A model generated the notes under the pieces. That model worked only from the letters and a program-made list of their open reading frames with translations, was not told where the DNA came from and made no database searches. Shown here piece after piece: positions 7,122-22,121 of a DNA stretch of 51,736 nt. The translations under genes were made by a program, and so were the position numbers. This DNA is from Nitrospirota bacterium (GTDB taxonomy: Bacteria > Nitrospirota > Thermodesulfovibrionia > Thermodesulfovibrionales > Dissulfurispiraceae), in NCBI GenBank assembly GCA_004321915.1, contig SCQE01000070.1, positions 1 to 51,736 on the forward strand, in the 5' to 3' direction. Within the stretch, counting starts at the first letter, position 1. Every line of letters begins with the position of its first letter.

Positions 7122-8096
7122 ATGGGACGCAAGGTCATATGTGAGCTGTGCCCGACCGAATGCGAGCTGGACAATTATCAGGTTGGAGGATGCCGCACCC
7201 GCATCAATAAAGACGGCGTTCTTTACAGTCTCGTGTACGGGAAGCCTTGCGCCGTAGCCATAGACCCCATCGAAAAAAAGCCGTTTTTTCATTTTCTGCC
7301 TGCGACCAAGGCCTTTTCCATAGCCACCGCAGGCTGCGTACTCGACTGCAAGTTTTGCCAGAACTGGCAGATATCTCAGGCCAGACCCGAAGACGTAGAT
7401 GTCCATGACCTTCAGCCCGATCAGGTTGTCAGGAGCGCTTATTCTTACGGCTGCCGTTCGATCACATACACATACACCGAGCCTGCGGTTTTTTACGAAT
7501 ACATGTACGACACAGCAGTGCTCGCGCGGCGCTACGGCATAAAGAACACGATGCACACCTGCGGATACATAAACAAGAAGCCGCTCAAAGAGCTTTCGCG
7601 GTATATGGATGCCGCTGACGTGGATTTAAAGGCTTTTACGGAAGAGTTTTACGGCAGGATATGCGGCGGCAGGCTCAGGCCTGTTCTTGATTCGCTGGTG
7701 TCCCTTAAAGAAAACGGGGTCTGGCTCGAGATAACCAATCTCGTGATTCCCACACTTAACGATGATTTAGGTAAAATAAAAGAGATGTGCGGATGGATTG
7801 TAAAGAACTTGGGCCCTGAAGTCCCGATACATTTTTCGAGGTTCCATCCTAATTACAAACTTAAAAATCTGCCGCCAACCCCCATCGAGACTTTGATGTC
7901 CGTGCGGAAAACAGCGCTCGATGCGGGGCTTAAATATGTTTATGTCGGAAACGCGCGCAGCGACGCGGAAAACACTTACTGTCCTAAATGCAACAGGCTT
8001 CTTATAGAGCGGACGGTCTATTTTATAAAGCGGAACAATATTACAAACGGCGGGTGCGGTTTTTGCGGGACAAAGATCGCGGGAGTATGGGGGTAA
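7122..8096 (+). CDS. amrS: AmmeMemoRadiSam system radical SAM enzyme
   Basis: 324 residues, cytosolic. The radical SAM cluster motif CVLDCKFC (C72, C76, C79) binds the 4Fe-4S cluster; N-terminal C7/C10/C14/C24 and C-terminal CPKC (287/290) with CGFC (312/315) are extra cysteine sites usual in this family. YGKPCAVAIDPIEKKP and the NWQISQARPED region are typical of AmrS, related to pyruvate formate-lyase activating enzymes. The biochemical role of the family is not settled. The next genes are a small membrane ORF and the AmrB-AmrA fusion, so the whole module is co-transcribed. Confidence 0.92.
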   Translation: MGRKVICELCPTECELDNYQVGGCRTRINKDGVLYSLVYGKPCAVAIDPIEKKPFFHFLPATKAFSIATAGCVLDCKFCQNWQISQARPEDVDVHDLQPDQVVRSAYSYGCRSITYTYTEPAVFYEYMYDTAVLARRYGIKNTMHTCGYINKKPLKELSRYMDAADVDLKAFTEEFYGRICGGRLRPVLDSLVSLKENGVWLEITNLVIPTLNDDLGKIKEMCGWIVKNLGPEVPIHFSRFHPNYKLKNLPPTPIETLMSVRKTALDAGLKYVYVGNARSDAENTYCPKCNRLLIERTVYFIKRNNITNGGCGFCGTKIAGVWG

Positions 8097-8098
8097 TT

Positions 8099-8224
8099 AT
8101 GACACGGCGTGATTTGGTCCTTTTCTTTGCTGTAGGCGGGTTCGCAGGTTTTTTGTTTAAAAGGTTTCTGTACGTGGAAAAGCCCGTAAAGGCGAGGTTC
8201 TGGAGGAGTACGGATGAAACTTAG
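8099..8224 (+). CDS. 41-residue putative membrane peptide within the amr operon
   Basis: Starts ATG 8099, two bases after the amrS stop, and ends 11 bases inside the amrB-amrA gene (overlap 8214-8224). The N-terminus MTRRDLVLFFAVGGFAGFLF has a twin arginine followed by a hydrophobic segment (~6-21), then a basic tail KRFLYVEKPVKARFW. It resembles a Tat-type signal anchor or a one-pass membrane peptide. No homologue is recognised. Tight packing and coding overlap favour a real gene; the small size is the main reason for doubt. Confidence 0.55.
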   Translation: MTRRDLVLFFAVGGFAGFLFKRFLYVEKPVKARFWRSTDET

Positions 8225-9623
8225 GGCCTTTTTGTTTGCGGTGATATTGCTGTTTGTGCCCGCATGTTCCGAGAGCGTAAAAGAGCCTGCAGTCGCAGGG
8301 ACCTTTTATCCCGCCGAAGAGAAAGCGCTGAGAGAGATGGTCGACGGTTTTTTAGCAAAGGCCGGAAAATTTAAAGGAGCTGGACGCCCCGTAGCGCTTA
8401 TCTCTCCGCATGCCGGTTATCAATATTCGGGGCAGGTCGCGGCCTATTCGTATAAGCAGATACAGGGCACAGATATAAATACGGTCATACTTATCGGAGC
8501 AAGCCATCACAAGCCGTATACAGGAGTTTCTGTCTATGCGAAAGGCAGCATGCGCACGCCGCTCGGCAATATAAAAATAAACGAAAAGACGGCAAAGCTG
8601 CTTCTTAACGATAAGGCGAATGTCGTCTTTGACGCAGGCGCTTTCGAAAAGGAGCATTCCCTCGAAGTGCAGCTGCCGTTTCTTCAACGCAGCCTGAAAA
8701 ATTTTACTATAGTGCCTGTGCTTGTAGGGACCCCGACGAGGGAATCATTCCGGCATCTGACGGATGTTTTGACCGGCGTTCTCCGCAAAGACCCGCGCGC
8801 AATTGTAATTGCAAGCACGGATTTGTCGCATTATCACGATGACGGGACCGCGCGAGGCATGGACAACAGCGTTATCGATTCCGTTTCAAGGATGTCTTAC
8901 GAGGATTTGGAGCAGAAGCTTCTGACCGGAAAGGGCGAGATGTGCGGAGGCTTTCCGGTAATATTCACAATGGCGGTTGCGCGTAATATGGGCGCCAACC
9001 GGGGCGAACTCTTCAAATACGCCAATTCAGGCGATGTTACGGGAGACAAAGAGCGGGTTGTCGGTTACGCGGCAATGGGGCTCTATAAAACATATCTTAC
9101 AGCCGAAGAAAAGACCCTGCTTCTCGATATCGCAAAAAAGACGGTGAACGATTATGTGTCTACCGGCAAAGCTCCTGAGGTGACCGGCGACAATCCGAAT
9201 ATGCTCGCAAACGGGGCGACCTTTGTGACCATAAAGAAACACGGCGAACTGCGCGGCTGTATCGGCAATACCCGGCCGATTATGCCGCTTTACAAATCGG
9301 TGATCGCAAACTCTATATCCGCGGCTGTCAGAGACCCCCGCTTTGGGCCGTTGACCAAGCAGGAACTTAAGGACATTAAGGTCGAGGTCACGATACTTTC
9401 TCCGATAGAGCCTCTAAATGATATTAAGGACATAGTCGTTGGAAAGCACGGCCTCGTGATCGTCAATGGAGACAGGAGCGGATTGCTGTTGCCTCAGGTC
9501 GCAGAAGAAATGAGATGGGATGTAAAGACCTTTCTCGAGCAGCTTTCACAAAAGGCGGGCCTGCCGCCGGATGCATGGAAGGATTCACAGTTGTACTCGT
9601 TCACTGCGGAGGTGGTGAAATGA
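8214..9623 (+). CDS. Lipoprotein AmrB (MEMO)-AmrA (AMMECR1) fusion
   Basis: 469 residues. A signal peptide ends in the lipobox VPAC (C18), so the protein should be exported and lipidated. A MEMO/AmrB domain follows (~25-292): SPHAGYQYSG (H66), GASHH (H98-H99), EKEHSLEVQLPFL, ASTDLSHYH and EMCGG (C244) match the dioxygenase-like MEMO metal site. An AMMECR1/AmrA domain (~300-469) has the invariant hexapeptide LRGCIG (346-351). Fused AmrB-AmrA is known, but the function is not. GGAGG precedes the ATG. The odd point is location: exported, while AmrS just upstream is cytosolic. It overlaps the thioesterase gene by ATGA. Confidence 0.9.
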   Translation: MKLRAFLFAVILLFVPACSESVKEPAVAGTFYPAEEKALREMVDGFLAKAGKFKGAGRPVALISPHAGYQYSGQVAAYSYKQIQGTDINTVILIGASHHKPYTGVSVYAKGSMRTPLGNIKINEKTAKLLLNDKANVVFDAGAFEKEHSLEVQLPFLQRSLKNFTIVPVLVGTPTRESFRHLTDVLTGVLRKDPRAIVIASTDLSHYHDDGTARGMDNSVIDSVSRMSYEDLEQKLLTGKGEMCGGFPVIFTMAVARNMGANRGELFKYANSGDVTGDKERVVGYAAMGLYKTYLTAEEKTLLLDIAKKTVNDYVSTGKAPEVTGDNPNMLANGATFVTIKKHGELRGCIGNTRPIMPLYKSVIANSISAAVRDPRFGPLTKQELKDIKVEVTILSPIEPLNDIKDIVVGKHGLVIVNGDRSGLLLPQVAEEMRWDVKTFLEQLSQKAGLPPDAWKDSQLYSFTAEVVK

Positions 9624-9994
9624 ATATCAAGATCTACTACGAAGACACGGATGCGGGCGGGGTGGTGTACTATGCGAACTATCTGCGCTATCTGGAACGG
9701 GCCCGTACGGAGTTTCTTTTTGAACACGATATAAACGTCGCAGAATTTCATGATCAGGGATTGTTTTTTGTGGTAACGCATGTCGATATACACTACCGCC
9801 GTTCGGCCAGACTGGGGGATGTGATAACGGTCACTACGGAAGTCTCGGAGCTTAAAAACGCTTCGCTTCTCCTTAAACACAAAATTTTAAAAGATGAGAC
9901 TCTCTTGATCGAAGCTGCCGTAACGATAGCGTGCATCGATACCGGCGGAAGGCCGCGCAGGCTGCCCGAGAGTTTTAAGCGTCTTGCGGTTTGA
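9620..9994 (+). CDS. ybgC: YbgC/4-hydroxybenzoyl-CoA-type acyl-CoA thioesterase
   Basis: 124 residues, single hotdog fold. The N-terminal DTDAGGVVYYANYLRYLERARTE motif carries the catalytic Asp of the YbgC family. The enzyme hydrolyses acyl-CoA or acyl-ACP thioesters and is often linked to Tol-Pal; no tol genes are here. I chose ATG 9620, which overlaps the upstream stop (ATGA) and has GGAGGTG upstream; a longer frame opening at 9515 lies inside the AmrA coding region. The family call is secure, the substrate is not. Confidence 0.9.
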   Translation: MNIKIYYEDTDAGGVVYYANYLRYLERARTEFLFEHDINVAEFHDQGLFFVVTHVDIHYRRSARLGDVITVTTEVSELKNASLLLKHKILKDETLLIEAAVTIACIDTGGRPRRLPESFKRLAV

Positions 9995-15054: not shown

Positions 15055-17325
15055 TTACTCCCAGTTGAAAAAGCTCAGCACATTAGAAAAGTCGTCGGTC
15101 CATAAGCGGGCCGGAGCAAAGCCTTCTAGCCTTCTCCAGCGTTCGTCATATCTGAGATTCTGAAACGCTTCCGGCTTTTTCGCCATCAATACCCATTTGG
15201 AGCCGTACTTCATTATCTCCATGTCGTAGCCCGTCTCCTGTAAGAGCGCGGTGAGCCCTGCATCATTAGCAAGCCTTTGCAGCACGGGCTCCAGCGACAC
15301 GTATTTGTTCGTTATCTGGAAGGCGAGAATGCCGTCGTCCCTAAGCTTGGACAGATAGAGTCTCAGGGCCTCTTTGGTCAGGAGATGAACGGGTATTGCG
15401 TCGGAGCTGAACGCATCGAGGATTATTATATCGTAGCCTTTTGGCGCGGCATCCTCTATTCTCAGTCTTCCGTCGCCCAAGATTACTTCCCATTCAGCCC
15501 TGCTCTTCTCGAAGAATGTAAAGTATTCAGGGTCCGCAGCAATCTTCTTCACGGTCGGGTCTATCTCATAAAAGGTGAATTTCTGGCCCGCCTCTCCGTA
15601 GGCTATCAAGGTCCCCGCTCCGAGGCCGACAACCGCTACATGCTTTTTTGCCTTGGGCCCGCTGAACTCGGTGAAGACTTGGCCGATAGGCCCCTCCCTG
15701 TGGAAATAGGTGAAGGGCTCCTGACTGTATTCCGGGTCGAGGCTCTGTTTTCCGTGAAGGGTCGTTCCGTGAACGAGGCTTCTGAACCGTCCGTCTGCAT
15801 CGTTCATTACCGTATGGACTCCGAAAAAGCTCCGCTCTCTGTGAATGATGTCGCCCCCCCATTTGTCGGTCGCTATCCATACCGCTATAAAAACCGTTAT
15901 CGCAATACCGAAGCGCGCAGGTTTTTTTATGAACGAGACCGCATAGCAGATCAGGGCAGGGATTCCATAGGTAAAGGCTGTGTTTATGGTGTTTGTTTCT
16001 GCGTCGAAAATTTTTGAGAAGAGGGACAAGTCCATGTCCACGACAGGCCATTTTGCCATGAGCCAATATGCAAGGATCGCCAGCAATACGGGGATGGCCA
16101 GATCAAGATATTTTCTGTACCCCGAAGATTGGCCGGTTTCCGTGAACGGCAGGATTAAGGCTGCGAGGGCGAGCGCAAAAGGATATTCGAGTATGGAATT
16201 AAAAGTTATAGGGGCGATTATAGCATTGAATATTCCGCCCAAGGCGCCCCCTACGGACATCAGCAGATAGAATTCGGTGAGATATTTTACCGCAGGCCTG
16301 CTCAATGCGAGTTCTCCGTGGCAGACCATGGCCACTGCGAAGAAGGTCCCGAGATGGAGAATGAATACGGCCCACATCGGGGGTTTTAAATACGAGAACA
16401 TGATGAAAAGCAGGGCTGAAACGCCCAGCGGCAGCAGCCTTATCATTGTCTTGTGCAGAGAAGCGGGCAGCTTGGCGAATACGATAATGAAAGAGAGAAG
16501 GTAAAGCGCCAGAGGCACCACCCAGAAAAGCGGTATGGATGCTATGTCTGTCGTAAAATGTGTTGTCACGCCGAGCATGAGGCTTGAGGGTATAAAGGCA
16601 AGGACCACCCATTTTGACCTCTGCAGCATTGTCGGCGGGATTGCTGTATCTATGCAAAGTATGGAGTCCCCTTCCATGACGGCTGTTCCGCCGTTTACGC
16701 ATGCCGTGCGTTTTACGAAAAAGGCACAGAGCCCTGTCAGCAAAGCGAACAGGATGTATCCTACGGTCCACATGCCGCTCTGCCCGCCTAACGAAAGTTT
16801 GGGTTCTATTATCGTAGGATACGCCAAAAGCGCCAGCATGCTTCCCAGATTGCTTGCGCTGTATAGGAAATAAGGGTCGTTTGAGCTTTTGTGCCCTGTA
16901 GCCGCAAACCACCTTTGCAAAAGCGGCGCGCTCGACGAGAGGACGAAAAACGGCAGACTTACCGACATGAACAAAAGGCTGACAACCATCCATATGGGGC
17001 TTACGTCGAACCTTATCCATGCCTTGGAAATGCCTACGGGCAGAAAGACGCAGGCCATTACAAGCACCGCAATATGCACGGCGACCTGCCTGCCGAAACT
17101 TAACCGCCCGCTTAGAAAGTGTGCATATGCGTAACCTGCGAGCAGCGCGGCCTGAAAGAACATCATGCAGGTGTTCCAGACTGCCGGGGTGCCGCCCAGA
17201 ATGGGGAGTATCATCTTAGCTATCATGGGCTCTACAATAAAAAGCAGGCCTGCGCTCATAAAGAGCGCGACAGAAAAGAGACCGGGCAGCAGCGCATTAT
17301 ATAGTTTAGGTGAAATAAAACTCAT
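15055..17325 (-). CDS. Membrane-anchored spermidine synthase-like protein (MFS-type fusion)
   Basis: 756 residues. The N-terminal ~480 residues contain about 12 hydrophobic segments, starting GLFSVALFMSAGLLFIVEP, as in fused MFS/spermidine synthase proteins. The C-terminal part (~500-756) is a Rossmann methyltransferase-like fold with VVGLGAGTL, FYEIDP and DAFSSDAIPVHLLT, as in spermidine synthase. Whether it makes polyamines is unknown; the family may use other nucleophiles or substrates at the membrane. It is the last gene of a three-gene minus-strand unit, 11 bases after the small ATPase gene. Confidence 0.88.
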   Translation of the reverse strand: MSFISPKLYNALLPGLFSVALFMSAGLLFIVEPMIAKMILPILGGTPAVWNTCMMFFQAALLAGYAYAHFLSGRLSFGRQVAVHIAVLVMACVFLPVGISKAWIRFDVSPIWMVVSLLFMSVSLPFFVLSSSAPLLQRWFAATGHKSSNDPYFLYSASNLGSMLALLAYPTIIEPKLSLGGQSGMWTVGYILFALLTGLCAFFVKRTACVNGGTAVMEGDSILCIDTAIPPTMLQRSKWVVLAFIPSSLMLGVTTHFTTDIASIPLFWVVPLALYLLSFIIVFAKLPASLHKTMIRLLPLGVSALLFIMFSYLKPPMWAVFILHLGTFFAVAMVCHGELALSRPAVKYLTEFYLLMSVGGALGGIFNAIIAPITFNSILEYPFALALAALILPFTETGQSSGYRKYLDLAIPVLLAILAYWLMAKWPVVDMDLSLFSKIFDAETNTINTAFTYGIPALICYAVSFIKKPARFGIAITVFIAVWIATDKWGGDIIHRERSFFGVHTVMNDADGRFRSLVHGTTLHGKQSLDPEYSQEPFTYFHREGPIGQVFTEFSGPKAKKHVAVVGLGAGTLIAYGEAGQKFTFYEIDPTVKKIAADPEYFTFFEKSRAEWEVILGDGRLRIEDAAPKGYDIIILDAFSSDAIPVHLLTKEALRLYLSKLRDDGILAFQITNKYVSLEPVLQRLANDAGLTALLQETGYDMEIMKYGSKWVLMAKKPEAFQNLRYDERWRRLEGFAPARLWTDDFSNVLSFFNWE

Positions 17326-19944: not shown

Positions 19945-21318
19945 TTGAAATCCGACGCCGGAATCGACAGGCTGCCTCCTCAAAACCTCGAGGCAGAGCA
20001 GTCTGTCCTCGGCGCAATCCTTCTGGATAACGAGGCCATCTTCAAGACGGTCGACGTTGTCAGTGAAGTGGACTTTTATCGCGAGGCCCACAAACGCATT
20101 TACGGAGCGATGAGCTCTCTGTCCGAGAAAAACGAGCCTGTCGACATCATCACCCTTACGGACCACCTTAAAAAAACTAACGGACTCGACGCTGTAGGCG
20201 GTATTTCGTATCTGTCTCAGCTGGCCAATATGGTGCCGACTGCGGCCAATGTCAGATACCATGCGAGGATTGTGCGTGAGAAGGCCGTTCTTAGGGCATT
20301 GATTCAGGCCTCCACCAATATCGCGGCCATGGTCTATGAAGAATCCCGGGACGCGGACGAAATGGTGGATGTGGCGGAAAAAATAGTTTTCGATATATCA
20401 GACATACGCAATAAAAATGCCTTTGCCTCCATGCGCTCCGTCGTTATAGAAAGCATAAAGATAATCGAAAAACTTCACGAGAAGAAAGAAGAGATAACCG
20501 GCATGCCTACCGGATTCGTCGACCTTGACGCGCTTACCTCAGGTTTTCAGGCCGGTGACTTGATCATAATAGGCGGCAGGCCCGGAATGGGCAAGACCGC
20601 CTTTGCCTTGAATATTGCGCAGAATGTGGCTTTGGAAAGAAACGAGCCTGTAGCGATATTCAGCCTTGAAATGTCCAAAGAGCAGCTTGCGATGAGAATG
20701 TTGTCGGCGGAAAGCAGGCTGGACGCTTCGTTGGTCAGAAAAGGCCACATAAGCAAAGACAAATGGCCTGCGCTGACGCGCGCCGCGCAGAAACTGGCCG
20801 AGGCGCCGATCTTTATCGACGATTCTTCGGCGCTTACTGCCCTCGAAATAAGGGCCAAGGCCCGGAGGCTCAGCAAGGAGCACAAGGGCATAGGGCTTAT
20901 AGTCATAGACTATCTGCAGCTTATGCGAAGCAGGGGGAATTTCGAGAGAAGAGAGCAGGAAATATCCGACATATCGCGCTCTTTAAAGGCCTTGGCAAAG
21001 GAGCTTAAGGTCCCGGTAATTGCCCTCAGCCAGCTTAACAGGCAGGTCGAGCACAGGGGCGAAAAGAGGCCTACTCTTGCCGACCTCAGGGAATCCGGCG
21101 CTATCGAACAGGATGCGGATGTCATAATCTTCTTATACAAGGACGAGGCTCACCAAAAGGGCATGGGCCACAACAGGGACAGCAAGATAATAGTGGATGT
21201 GGCAAAGCAGAGAAACGGGCCTACCGACAGGATCAACCTGACGTTCCTTGCGAAATACACCAAATTCGAGGCCTACACCGAAATGGAATCGCTAGAGGCT
21301 GAAGAAGAGGTGTTCTGA
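19945..21318 (+). CDS. dnaB: Replicative DNA helicase DnaB
   Basis: 457 residues. The N-terminal helical domain (PPQNLEAEQSVLGAIL) binds primase; the RecA-type motor domain shows Walker A GGRPGMGKTAF, IFSLEMSKEQLAMRML, Walker B LIVIDYLQLM, and the DnaB4 motif ALSQLNRQVE...LRESGAIEQDADV. There is no intein. The start is a TTG at 19945 (GAGAGGG upstream); no nearer ATG fits the conserved N-terminus. Its stop TGA shares one base with the ATG of the amrB gene. Confidence 0.97.
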   Translation: MKSDAGIDRLPPQNLEAEQSVLGAILLDNEAIFKTVDVVSEVDFYREAHKRIYGAMSSLSEKNEPVDIITLTDHLKKTNGLDAVGGISYLSQLANMVPTAANVRYHARIVREKAVLRALIQASTNIAAMVYEESRDADEMVDVAEKIVFDISDIRNKNAFASMRSVVIESIKIIEKLHEKKEEITGMPTGFVDLDALTSGFQAGDLIIIGGRPGMGKTAFALNIAQNVALERNEPVAIFSLEMSKEQLAMRMLSAESRLDASLVRKGHISKDKWPALTRAAQKLAEAPIFIDDSSALTALEIRAKARRLSKEHKGIGLIVIDYLQLMRSRGNFERREQEISDISRSLKALAKELKVPVIALSQLNRQVEHRGEKRPTLADLRESGAIEQDADVIIFLYKDEAHQKGMGHNRDSKIIVDVAKQRNGPTDRINLTFLAKYTKFEAYTEMESLEAEEEVF

Positions 21319-22121
21319 TGAAACGCTCTCCTGTTGTTGCCGGGCAGTTCTACGAAGGTGACCGCGCAAGGCTTTCCGGGCAGGTCGGTAAATACATAGT
21401 TGACGGGACCCCGAAAGAAAAGGCGATAGGCATAATGTCGCCTCACGCCGGGCTCGTATATTCCGGCGGTGTGGCAGGCGCCGTATTTTCGTCCATAGAA
21501 TTCCCCGAAACCTTCGTGTTGCTCGGTCCTAATCACACAGGGCTGGGTTCGGACATTTCTATAATGTCGTCCGGTTCTTGGGAAGTGCCGACCGGACAGT
21601 TTGATATAGATTCCGATTTGTCCGCGAAGCTGCTCGCAAAAACATCCCGTGTTTCCGAAAATCATCAGGCGCATGCGTATGAGCATTCGCTTGAAGTGCA
21701 GCTGCCCTTTATTGCGCACTTCTCGGCTTCGGTGAAGATAGTGCCGATCACGATAATGAGGGCTTCGCTCGATGATTGCCGTGCAGTAGGCTCGGCCCTT
21801 GCGGAATGTATCGGGGACGTAAAGCATCGTGTCGTTATCGTGGCCAGTTCGGATATGAGCCATTACGTCCCGGATGAGACAGCGCGGCGGATGGACGGGC
21901 TTGCTATCAAGGAGATGCTCGATTTGGACCCTGAAGGTCTTTATAACACCGTTGCGAAAAACAGGATTTCGATGTGCGGGATACTGCCCGCAACCATAAT
22001 GCTTTATGCTGCGCTGGCGCTCGGGGCCAAAGAGGCCAAACTGATAAAATACGCCACATCAGGGGAAACGAGCGGAGATTTTGCGCATGTCGTAGGCTAT
22101 GCCGGAGTGCTGGTAAAATAG
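21318..22121 (+). CDS. amrB: Stand-alone AmrB/MEMO-like protein, cytosolic
   Basis: 267 residues, second MEMO paralogue in the window. Motifs parallel the fusion protein: RSPVVAGQFYEGD, SPHAGLVYSGG, LGPNHTG (one His where the fusion has HH), EHSLEVQLPFI, ASSDMSHYV and SMCGILP. It has no signal peptide and no AMMECR1 domain. The TGATG junction with dnaB and direct abutment with mobA make it part of a coupled run. Function unknown; candidate partner of the AmrS at 7.1 kb. Confidence 0.88.
   Translation: MKRSPVVAGQFYEGDRARLSGQVGKYIVDGTPKEKAIGIMSPHAGLVYSGGVAGAVFSSIEFPETFVLLGPNHTGLGSDISIMSSGSWEVPTGQFDIDSDLSAKLLAKTSRVSENHQAHAYEHSLEVQLPFIAHFSASVKIVPITIMRASLDDCRAVGSALAECIGDVKHRVVIVASSDMSHYVPDETARRMDGLAIKEMLDLDPEGLYNTVAKNRISMCGILPATIMLYAALALGAKEAKLIKYATSGETSGDFAHVVGYAGVLVK

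Follow-up and report, generated by a model that had tools for sequence, protein, structure and literature searches.

An AmmeMemoRadiSam locus of a Nitrospirota bacterium that may supply its radical SAM protein with a twin-arginine signal in trans

How could a radical SAM protein that looks cytosolic work with partner domains that look exported? The window analyzed here (the whole stretch of 51,736 nucleotides, contig C125 of genome G000) raises this question, since its AmrS gene is followed by a 41-residue ORF and by an AmrB-AmrA fusion with an N-terminal signal. The closest named relative is a Nitrospirae MAG, with a fusion that is 86% identical. The relevant features are as follows:

7122-8096, plus strand: AmrS, split form (TIGR04337, 379 bits, cut-off 220)
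8099-8224, plus strand: 41-residue ORF, predicted twin-arginine signal and AmrS-like tail, MTRRDLVLFFAVGGFAGFLFKRFLYVEKPVKARFWRSTDET
8186-8209, plus strand: codons of the AmrS-like tail (small-ORF residues 30-37), with the conserved Ala, Phe and Trp
8202-8206, plus strand: GGAGG, likely ribosome-binding site of the fusion gene, within the tail codons (from the sequence)
8214-9623, plus strand: AmrB-AmrA fusion with predicted N-terminal export signal (TIGR04336 and TIGR04335 above cut-off)
8256-8267, plus strand: relaxed lipobox V15-P16-A17-C18 of the fusion (from the sequence and class-wide comparison)
9620-9994, plus strand: YbgC-type thioesterase overlapping the fusion stop (TIGR02799, 143 bits)
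21318-22121, plus strand: second AmrB, stand-alone and leaderless, MKRSPVVAG... (profile match, 304 bits)

The order and coordinates of the three ORFs agree with the preliminary description of this DNA. The small ORF starts 2 nt 3' of the AmrS stop, and its end overlaps the fusion start by 11 nt. The thioesterase is regarded as a neighbour, membership in the module not being shown.

The AmrB part of the fusion comprises residues 23-288 (TIGR04336, 279 bits, cut-off 26) and the AmrA part residues 302-467 (TIGR04335, 183 bits, cut-off 99). Its N-terminus is MKLRAFLFAVILLFVPAC, in which a hydrophobic stretch closes with VPA and C18. Fusion N-termini were compared in a set of 51, the window included, drawn from 54 fusion genomes among 230 genomes of the class; G060, G103 and G113, where this N-terminus is unreadable, were omitted. 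A hydrophobic stretch lies ahead of the MEMO domain in all 51 (lowest 12-residue Kyte-Doolittle mean, 2.33) and no homologue starting past residue 25 was seen among them, which bears out the earlier proposal of an export-directed fusion and argues against a spurious signal peptide. The hydrophobic stretch ends in a Cys in 48 fusions; the N-termini of the other three (L090, L096 and L097) are, in our reading, Sec-like or membrane-anchor. The strict lipobox ([LVI][ASTVI][GAS]C) occurs in 11 of the 51, and 34 conform to a relaxed rule (a small residue before the Cys), leaving six with neither; in L054, L056 and L057 a large residue precedes the Cys. The previously suggested lipobox VPAC therefore stands at C18 under the relaxed rule but not under the strict one. 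Since the hydrophobic N-terminus is universal but the strict lipobox is found in only 11 proteins, export of the fusion appears better supported than lipidation.

In a tree of AmrB, the exported fusions do not form one clade (two changes; long rows L011, L210, L090 and L010). In 20 loci (L045, L046, L062, L075 and others) the fusion is followed on its 3' side by a gene that we take to be similar to B12-dependent ribonucleotide reductases. The MEMO metal ligands (H, H and C) are present in each of the 50 exported fusions with an alignment of 200 residues or more, L212 included, and we equate the third of them, Cys, with C244 of MEMO1. The ligands of human MEMO1 are H49, H81 and C244 (PMC11081632). 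The fusion matches MEMO1 locally (PDB 7kq8 and 3bcz; E 1.5e-22) and keeps the equivalents of H49 and H81; unlike MEMO1 it is bacterial, joined to AMMECR1 and apparently exported.

The small ORF has no family match in NCBIfam or Pfam. Its twin-arginine signal, the likeness of which had been noticed before, is TRRDL at residues 2-6, and the ORF is indeed kept by relatives, at 45 of the 51 fusion loci. All 45 members have RR where a Tat signal would have it, and hydrophobic residues and an h-region come next. The search patterns demanded RR; an unfiltered ORF listing gives the same ORFs, and no variant lacking RR was found at the six fusion loci without a match. The L066 ORF, with no standard start near RR, was counted from the pattern-based listing. 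The tail is likewise conserved (Ala in 45, Phe in 43 and Trp in 44 of the 45).

It is the tail that connects this ORF to AmrS. The window AmrS matches TIGR04337 only from model position 11 onwards, being without the ~10 residues with which the family starts, and the tail of the small ORF, VKARFWRS, resembles an AmrS N-terminus. Its consensus across loci, KEAMFW[RK]K, corresponds to the first ~10 residues of ordinary AmrS: ordinary proteins start MKEAMFYEKLDEKKVRCFLC and hold a tail-like segment in cis (KEAMFYEKLD...), small ORFs end KEAMFWRKLD, and the AmrS of the module starts MSKTVQCELC. The TIGR04337 match starts mostly at positions 6-12 in split AmrS vs 1-7 in ordinary AmrS; the few split proteins matched from position 2-4 (G107, G173, G111, G097 and others) are explained by an open frame that extends upstream of the start codon.

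A profile of the tail had its best match at the N-terminus in 42 of 45 single-chain AmrS (exactly 16 residues before the first Cys in 40 of the 45) and located the N-terminus in 38 of 39 ordinary AmrS; the misses in the first profile test were L149, L163 and L096. Column-shuffled profiles, 200 in all, never reached 42 (mean 8.6, maximum 38), and a control profile of the Tat segment scored 0. The first test used 46 rows and the second 45 (without L155 of G088, the duplicate L181 having already been skipped), with other fragments and duplicates skipped in both. Across the split, tail plus AmrS start gives a register of 17 residues in 17 of 40 loci and of 13-19 in 38 of them, compared with 16 residues to the first Cys in cis; two loci deviate, L067 through start choice and L085 through a longer ORF. 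As the tail matches exactly the residues missing from the window AmrS, the small ORF encodes, on sequence grounds, the N-terminus of AmrS in detached form and with a Tat signal.

In a tree of 92 AmrS, obtained by a quick method and with some long branches, the 46 split proteins and six export-tagged single-chain proteins fall together (SH-aLRT 100), apart from 40 ordinary ones, and the split proteins form one group (SH-aLRT 99). The single-chain proteins bear a Tat signal (G084, G085), a Tat signal with Cys (G111, G112) or a Sec-like signal (G033). In G111, G112 and G113 the single-chain AmrS with a twin-arginine signal (L150, L158 and L175) is an additional copy, and in the first two a Cys follows the signal (TLCPGC and TLCMGC). 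The radical SAM motif CX3CX2C is intact in the window (C72, C76 and C79) and kept in all 46 split, 6 export-tagged and 40 ordinary AmrS; with these cysteines and the MEMO ligands conserved throughout, nothing in the sequences suggests a dead enzyme. The preliminary description had taken AmrS to be simply cytosolic and hence in conflict with the exported fusion. This is not supported, as the small ORF bears both a Tat motif and the missing segment of AmrS and the clade includes single-chain members with export signals of their own; with a second, leaderless set also present in this genome, the topology conflict mostly dissolves.

A split AmrS is present in all 45 small-ORF genomes, adjacent in 41 and elsewhere in four (G061, G062, G065 and G077), where the small ORF lies beside the fusion and not beside AmrS. 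Six fusion loci lack the small ORF: in G210, G159 and G160 every AmrS is of the ordinary kind, in G084 and G085 a single-chain Tat-AmrS accompanies the ordinary one, and in G025 an AmrS fragment is all that was found. No fusion turned up in G112, where a split AmrS and the small ORF lie at a contig end. In G271, which lies outside the class, a truncated AmrS and the small ORF accompany a fusion whose hydrophobic N-terminus lacks the Cys. TatC is encoded in the window's own genome (contig C13, E 8.4e-70) and in 46 of the 51 fusion genomes, this one included; it was not found in the remaining five, all drafts (G053, G098, G115, G149 and G188).

We consider it probable (roughly 0.6) that this locus holds a second AmmeMemoRadiSam module, one located in the envelope, with an AmrS that is carried out by a Tat signal in trans. 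At the level of sequence, the segment, its register, the selection on it and its co-occurrence with an AmrS that lacks it are demonstrated. AmrS would fold and load its cofactor cluster in the cytosol; the small protein would dock on folded AmrS through the AmrS-like tail and, with AmrS as hitchhiker, cross the membrane via the Tat translocase, or else might stay as a membrane anchor of an AmrS that lies outside. There AmrS would meet the exported, probably lipid-anchored AmrB-AmrA protein, the cytosolic AmmeMemoRadiSam work presumably being left to a separate leaderless set. AlphaFold models of the window AmrS and of the complete AmrS L010 (pLDDT 53.6 and 54.4, from 4-row alignments) were too poor to bear on docking. 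By position, the small ORF goes with the fusion more closely than with AmrS, which counts against this explanation. In known Tat hitchhiker pairs, of which NiFe hydrogenases and formate dehydrogenases are examples, a tagged partner carries an untagged cofactor protein (PMC10924467); here, by contrast, the putative signal-bearer is only ~40 residues long and would be the passenger's own split-off N-terminus.

Two further proteins co-occur with the exported-type AmrS. A polytopic protein of ~700 residues with a Spermine_synth domain (Pfam PF01564) is encoded close to the module at 22 loci, one of them L096, where AmrS is a single chain with a Tat signal, and relatives adjoin the export-tagged AmrS of L133, L150 and L158. 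A search of 80 genomes found it in 43 of the 44 that have exported-type AmrS (all but G007) vs 1 of 36 others (G064), with a Fisher p of 2e-20 that ignores relatedness, and a flavoprotein with FMN_bind and Fer4_5 is present in 28 of 44 vs 1 of 36; p-values in this comparison take no account of shared ancestry, and 32 non-fusion genomes were classed from match listings, their AmrS N-termini being read in part. The counts do not cover the fusion genomes G139, G188, G115, G098 and G149, nor G156, G012, G075, G211, G198, G006, G174, G162, G179 and G203. The absence of the flavoprotein from 16 of the 44 genomes again counts against the preferred explanation. In the window's own genome the two genes overlap on contig C17 (6053-8131 and 8124-9332), away from the window. 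Within genera the parts are gained or lost together: G208 and G209 have the parts and G210 does not, G161 has them and G159 and G160 do not, and further such pairs are G056 vs G057, G222 vs G220 and G224, and G227 vs G225. In G210, G159 and G160 the fusion alone survives. Locus L244 (G064, contig C85) keeps the pair of membrane protein and flavoprotein, and no fusion was found in this genome, which is 99% complete. The window itself contains a fused MFS/spermidine-synthase-like ORF (15055-17325, minus strand; NF037959, 59.7 bits, cut-off 40); it is distantly similar to the linked membrane protein and was rejected as a candidate for it, the orthologue lying on C17.

The flavoprotein resembles carriers of the NosR/RnfG/NapH type in its FMN_bind and Fer4_5 domains but scores far below the NosR, NapH and RnfG cut-offs; its D-A-I-S-R-A-T segment is presumably a flavinylation-like motif. 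It is a candidate for supplying electrons on the outer face, and the membrane protein, with its putative spermidine-synthase-type domain, might deal with SAM or a similar nucleoside. Any radical SAM enzyme depends on SAM and on a strong reductant, and we know of no established extracytoplasmic supply of either, which is the weak point of the preferred explanation. That AmrS would be an extracytoplasmic radical SAM enzyme, with its Tat signal in trans, and work with an envelope set of flavoprotein, membrane protein and exported MEMO-AMMECR1 protein, is a tentative proposal to which we give slightly less than even odds.

SAM and reductant are available inside, and the main rival, unlikely but to be taken seriously, would leave AmrS there: the split-off N-terminus would be a single-helix anchor with a cytosolic tail, holding AmrS at the inner membrane face opposite the exported AmrB-AmrA protein. 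In our own reading, basic residues (KK/KR) follow the hydrophobic stretch in nearly all small ORFs, and the positive-inside rule would put the tail inside unless the protein is a Tat substrate; many of these ORFs, that of the window included, also have no obvious signal-peptidase site. However, the RR and hydrophobic residues of all 45 members would be needless for a plain anchor, and the Tat, Tat-plus-Cys and Sec-like N-termini of the single-chain relatives favour an AmrS body outside.

It is considerably less probable that the small ORF encodes a precursor peptide that AmrS modifies at the aromatic tail. A small conserved ORF with an A-x-F-W motif does adjoin a radical SAM gene, and PMC7159879 ties radical SAM domains related to Memo and Ammecr1 to peptide processing. 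In ordinary AmrS, however, the tail is part of the protein itself and equally far from the first Cys, and the separate tail is present exactly where AmrS lacks it. The sequence evidence thus speaks for a split enzyme over a radical SAM-modified peptide (RiPP precursor).

The chances are equally slim that two unrelated systems are involved, with the exported fusion acting alone and the operon's AmrS serving a cytosolic set. The genome has two AmrB, two AmrA and, over the cut-off, two AmrS, the second copies being scattered (AmrB at 21318-22121 of the window, AmrA on contig C39 and AmrS on C47, with the N-terminus MKEALLYNRTGDGKTQC). Across the class, the fusion query matched in 229 of the 230 genomes and the fusion itself occurs in 54 by our count of the listing, mostly as an extra match beside stand-alone copies; the fusion is therefore an accessory, paralogous copy. 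Most of 24 stand-alone AmrB, that of the window included, can by our reading start at the domain without an evident signal. Leaderless AmrB and AmrA are thus at hand, and G210, G159 and G160 keep an exported fusion without split AmrS, small ORF or membrane protein; but a second, ordinary AmrS is already available to the cytosolic set, and the split AmrS form a clade of their own, linked to the small ORF and the fusion. The separate systems suggested previously are partly borne out, as leaderless AmrB, AmrA and AmrS do exist elsewhere in the genome.

In other families of the phylum (L221-L229), leaderless AmrB-AmrA fusions without an export signal adjoin AmrS, the N-terminus of which is intact wherever it was read, and so domain fusion alone does not go with export. 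An Ideonella plasmid provides a further contrast, with a leaderless fusion and a complete AmrS. On a Segatella plasmid (NZ_CP137560, L210), a fusion with a signal-like N-terminus lies beside a leaderless AmrS that ends ahead of the C-terminal Cys region, raising the same topology question in another phylum. No AmrS relative was found among viral contigs.

Least probable of all is a role in translational coupling alone, the small ORF being a ribosome-loading device whose end carries the Shine-Dalgarno sequence of the fusion: the tail codons (TTCTGGAGG) do overlap that site in most loci, and at this junction overlaps of stop and start by 4 to 11 nt are frequent, but in L064, L071 and L076 the tail is retained although the start chosen for the fusion lies 41-55 nt away, nine pairs give a pN/pS of 0.31 in the small-ORF frame vs 0.92 and 1.25 in the others, and the match to AmrS would be left unexplained. 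The Phe codon is TTC in 41 of 44 loci, a preference that, like the purines that follow, goes back to the ribosome-binding site of the fusion. As the invariant Ala upstream is encoded by each of its four codons (GCA 14, GCC 13, GCG 10 and GCT 7), selection is for the amino acid itself. With purifying selection in its own frame, the small ORF is a real gene. Codon usage and in-frame selection count against a Shine-Dalgarno-only reading, and conservation at 45 of 51 loci together with the in-frame pN/pS against a chance ORF; both readings were rejected.

As in the AmmeMemoRadiSam system (TIGR04335, TIGR04336 and TIGR04337), all three domains score over their cut-offs, with SAM cysteines and MEMO ligands kept; unlike in that system, AmrB-AmrA is apparently exported and the N-terminal segment of AmrS is encoded separately with a putative Tat signal. 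In the open-access literature, as distinct from subscription papers and preprints, we found no account of such an exported split AmrS, and the main texts of PMC8238504 and PMC11334425, on flavinylated electron carriers, contain no mention of radical SAM, MEMO, AMMECR1 or spermidine. If the preferred explanation is true, AmrS would be an extracytoplasmic radical SAM enzyme, unusual for its kind, and the source of its SAM and low-potential electrons would become a direct question; the use of a passenger's own detached N-terminus as a Tat tag would be a new use of the Tat pathway. The function of the AmmeMemoRadiSam triad, which is related to human MEMO1 and AMMECR1, is unsettled, and an envelope paralogue with dedicated partners would narrow the possible chemistry and could be tested apart from the cytosolic copy.
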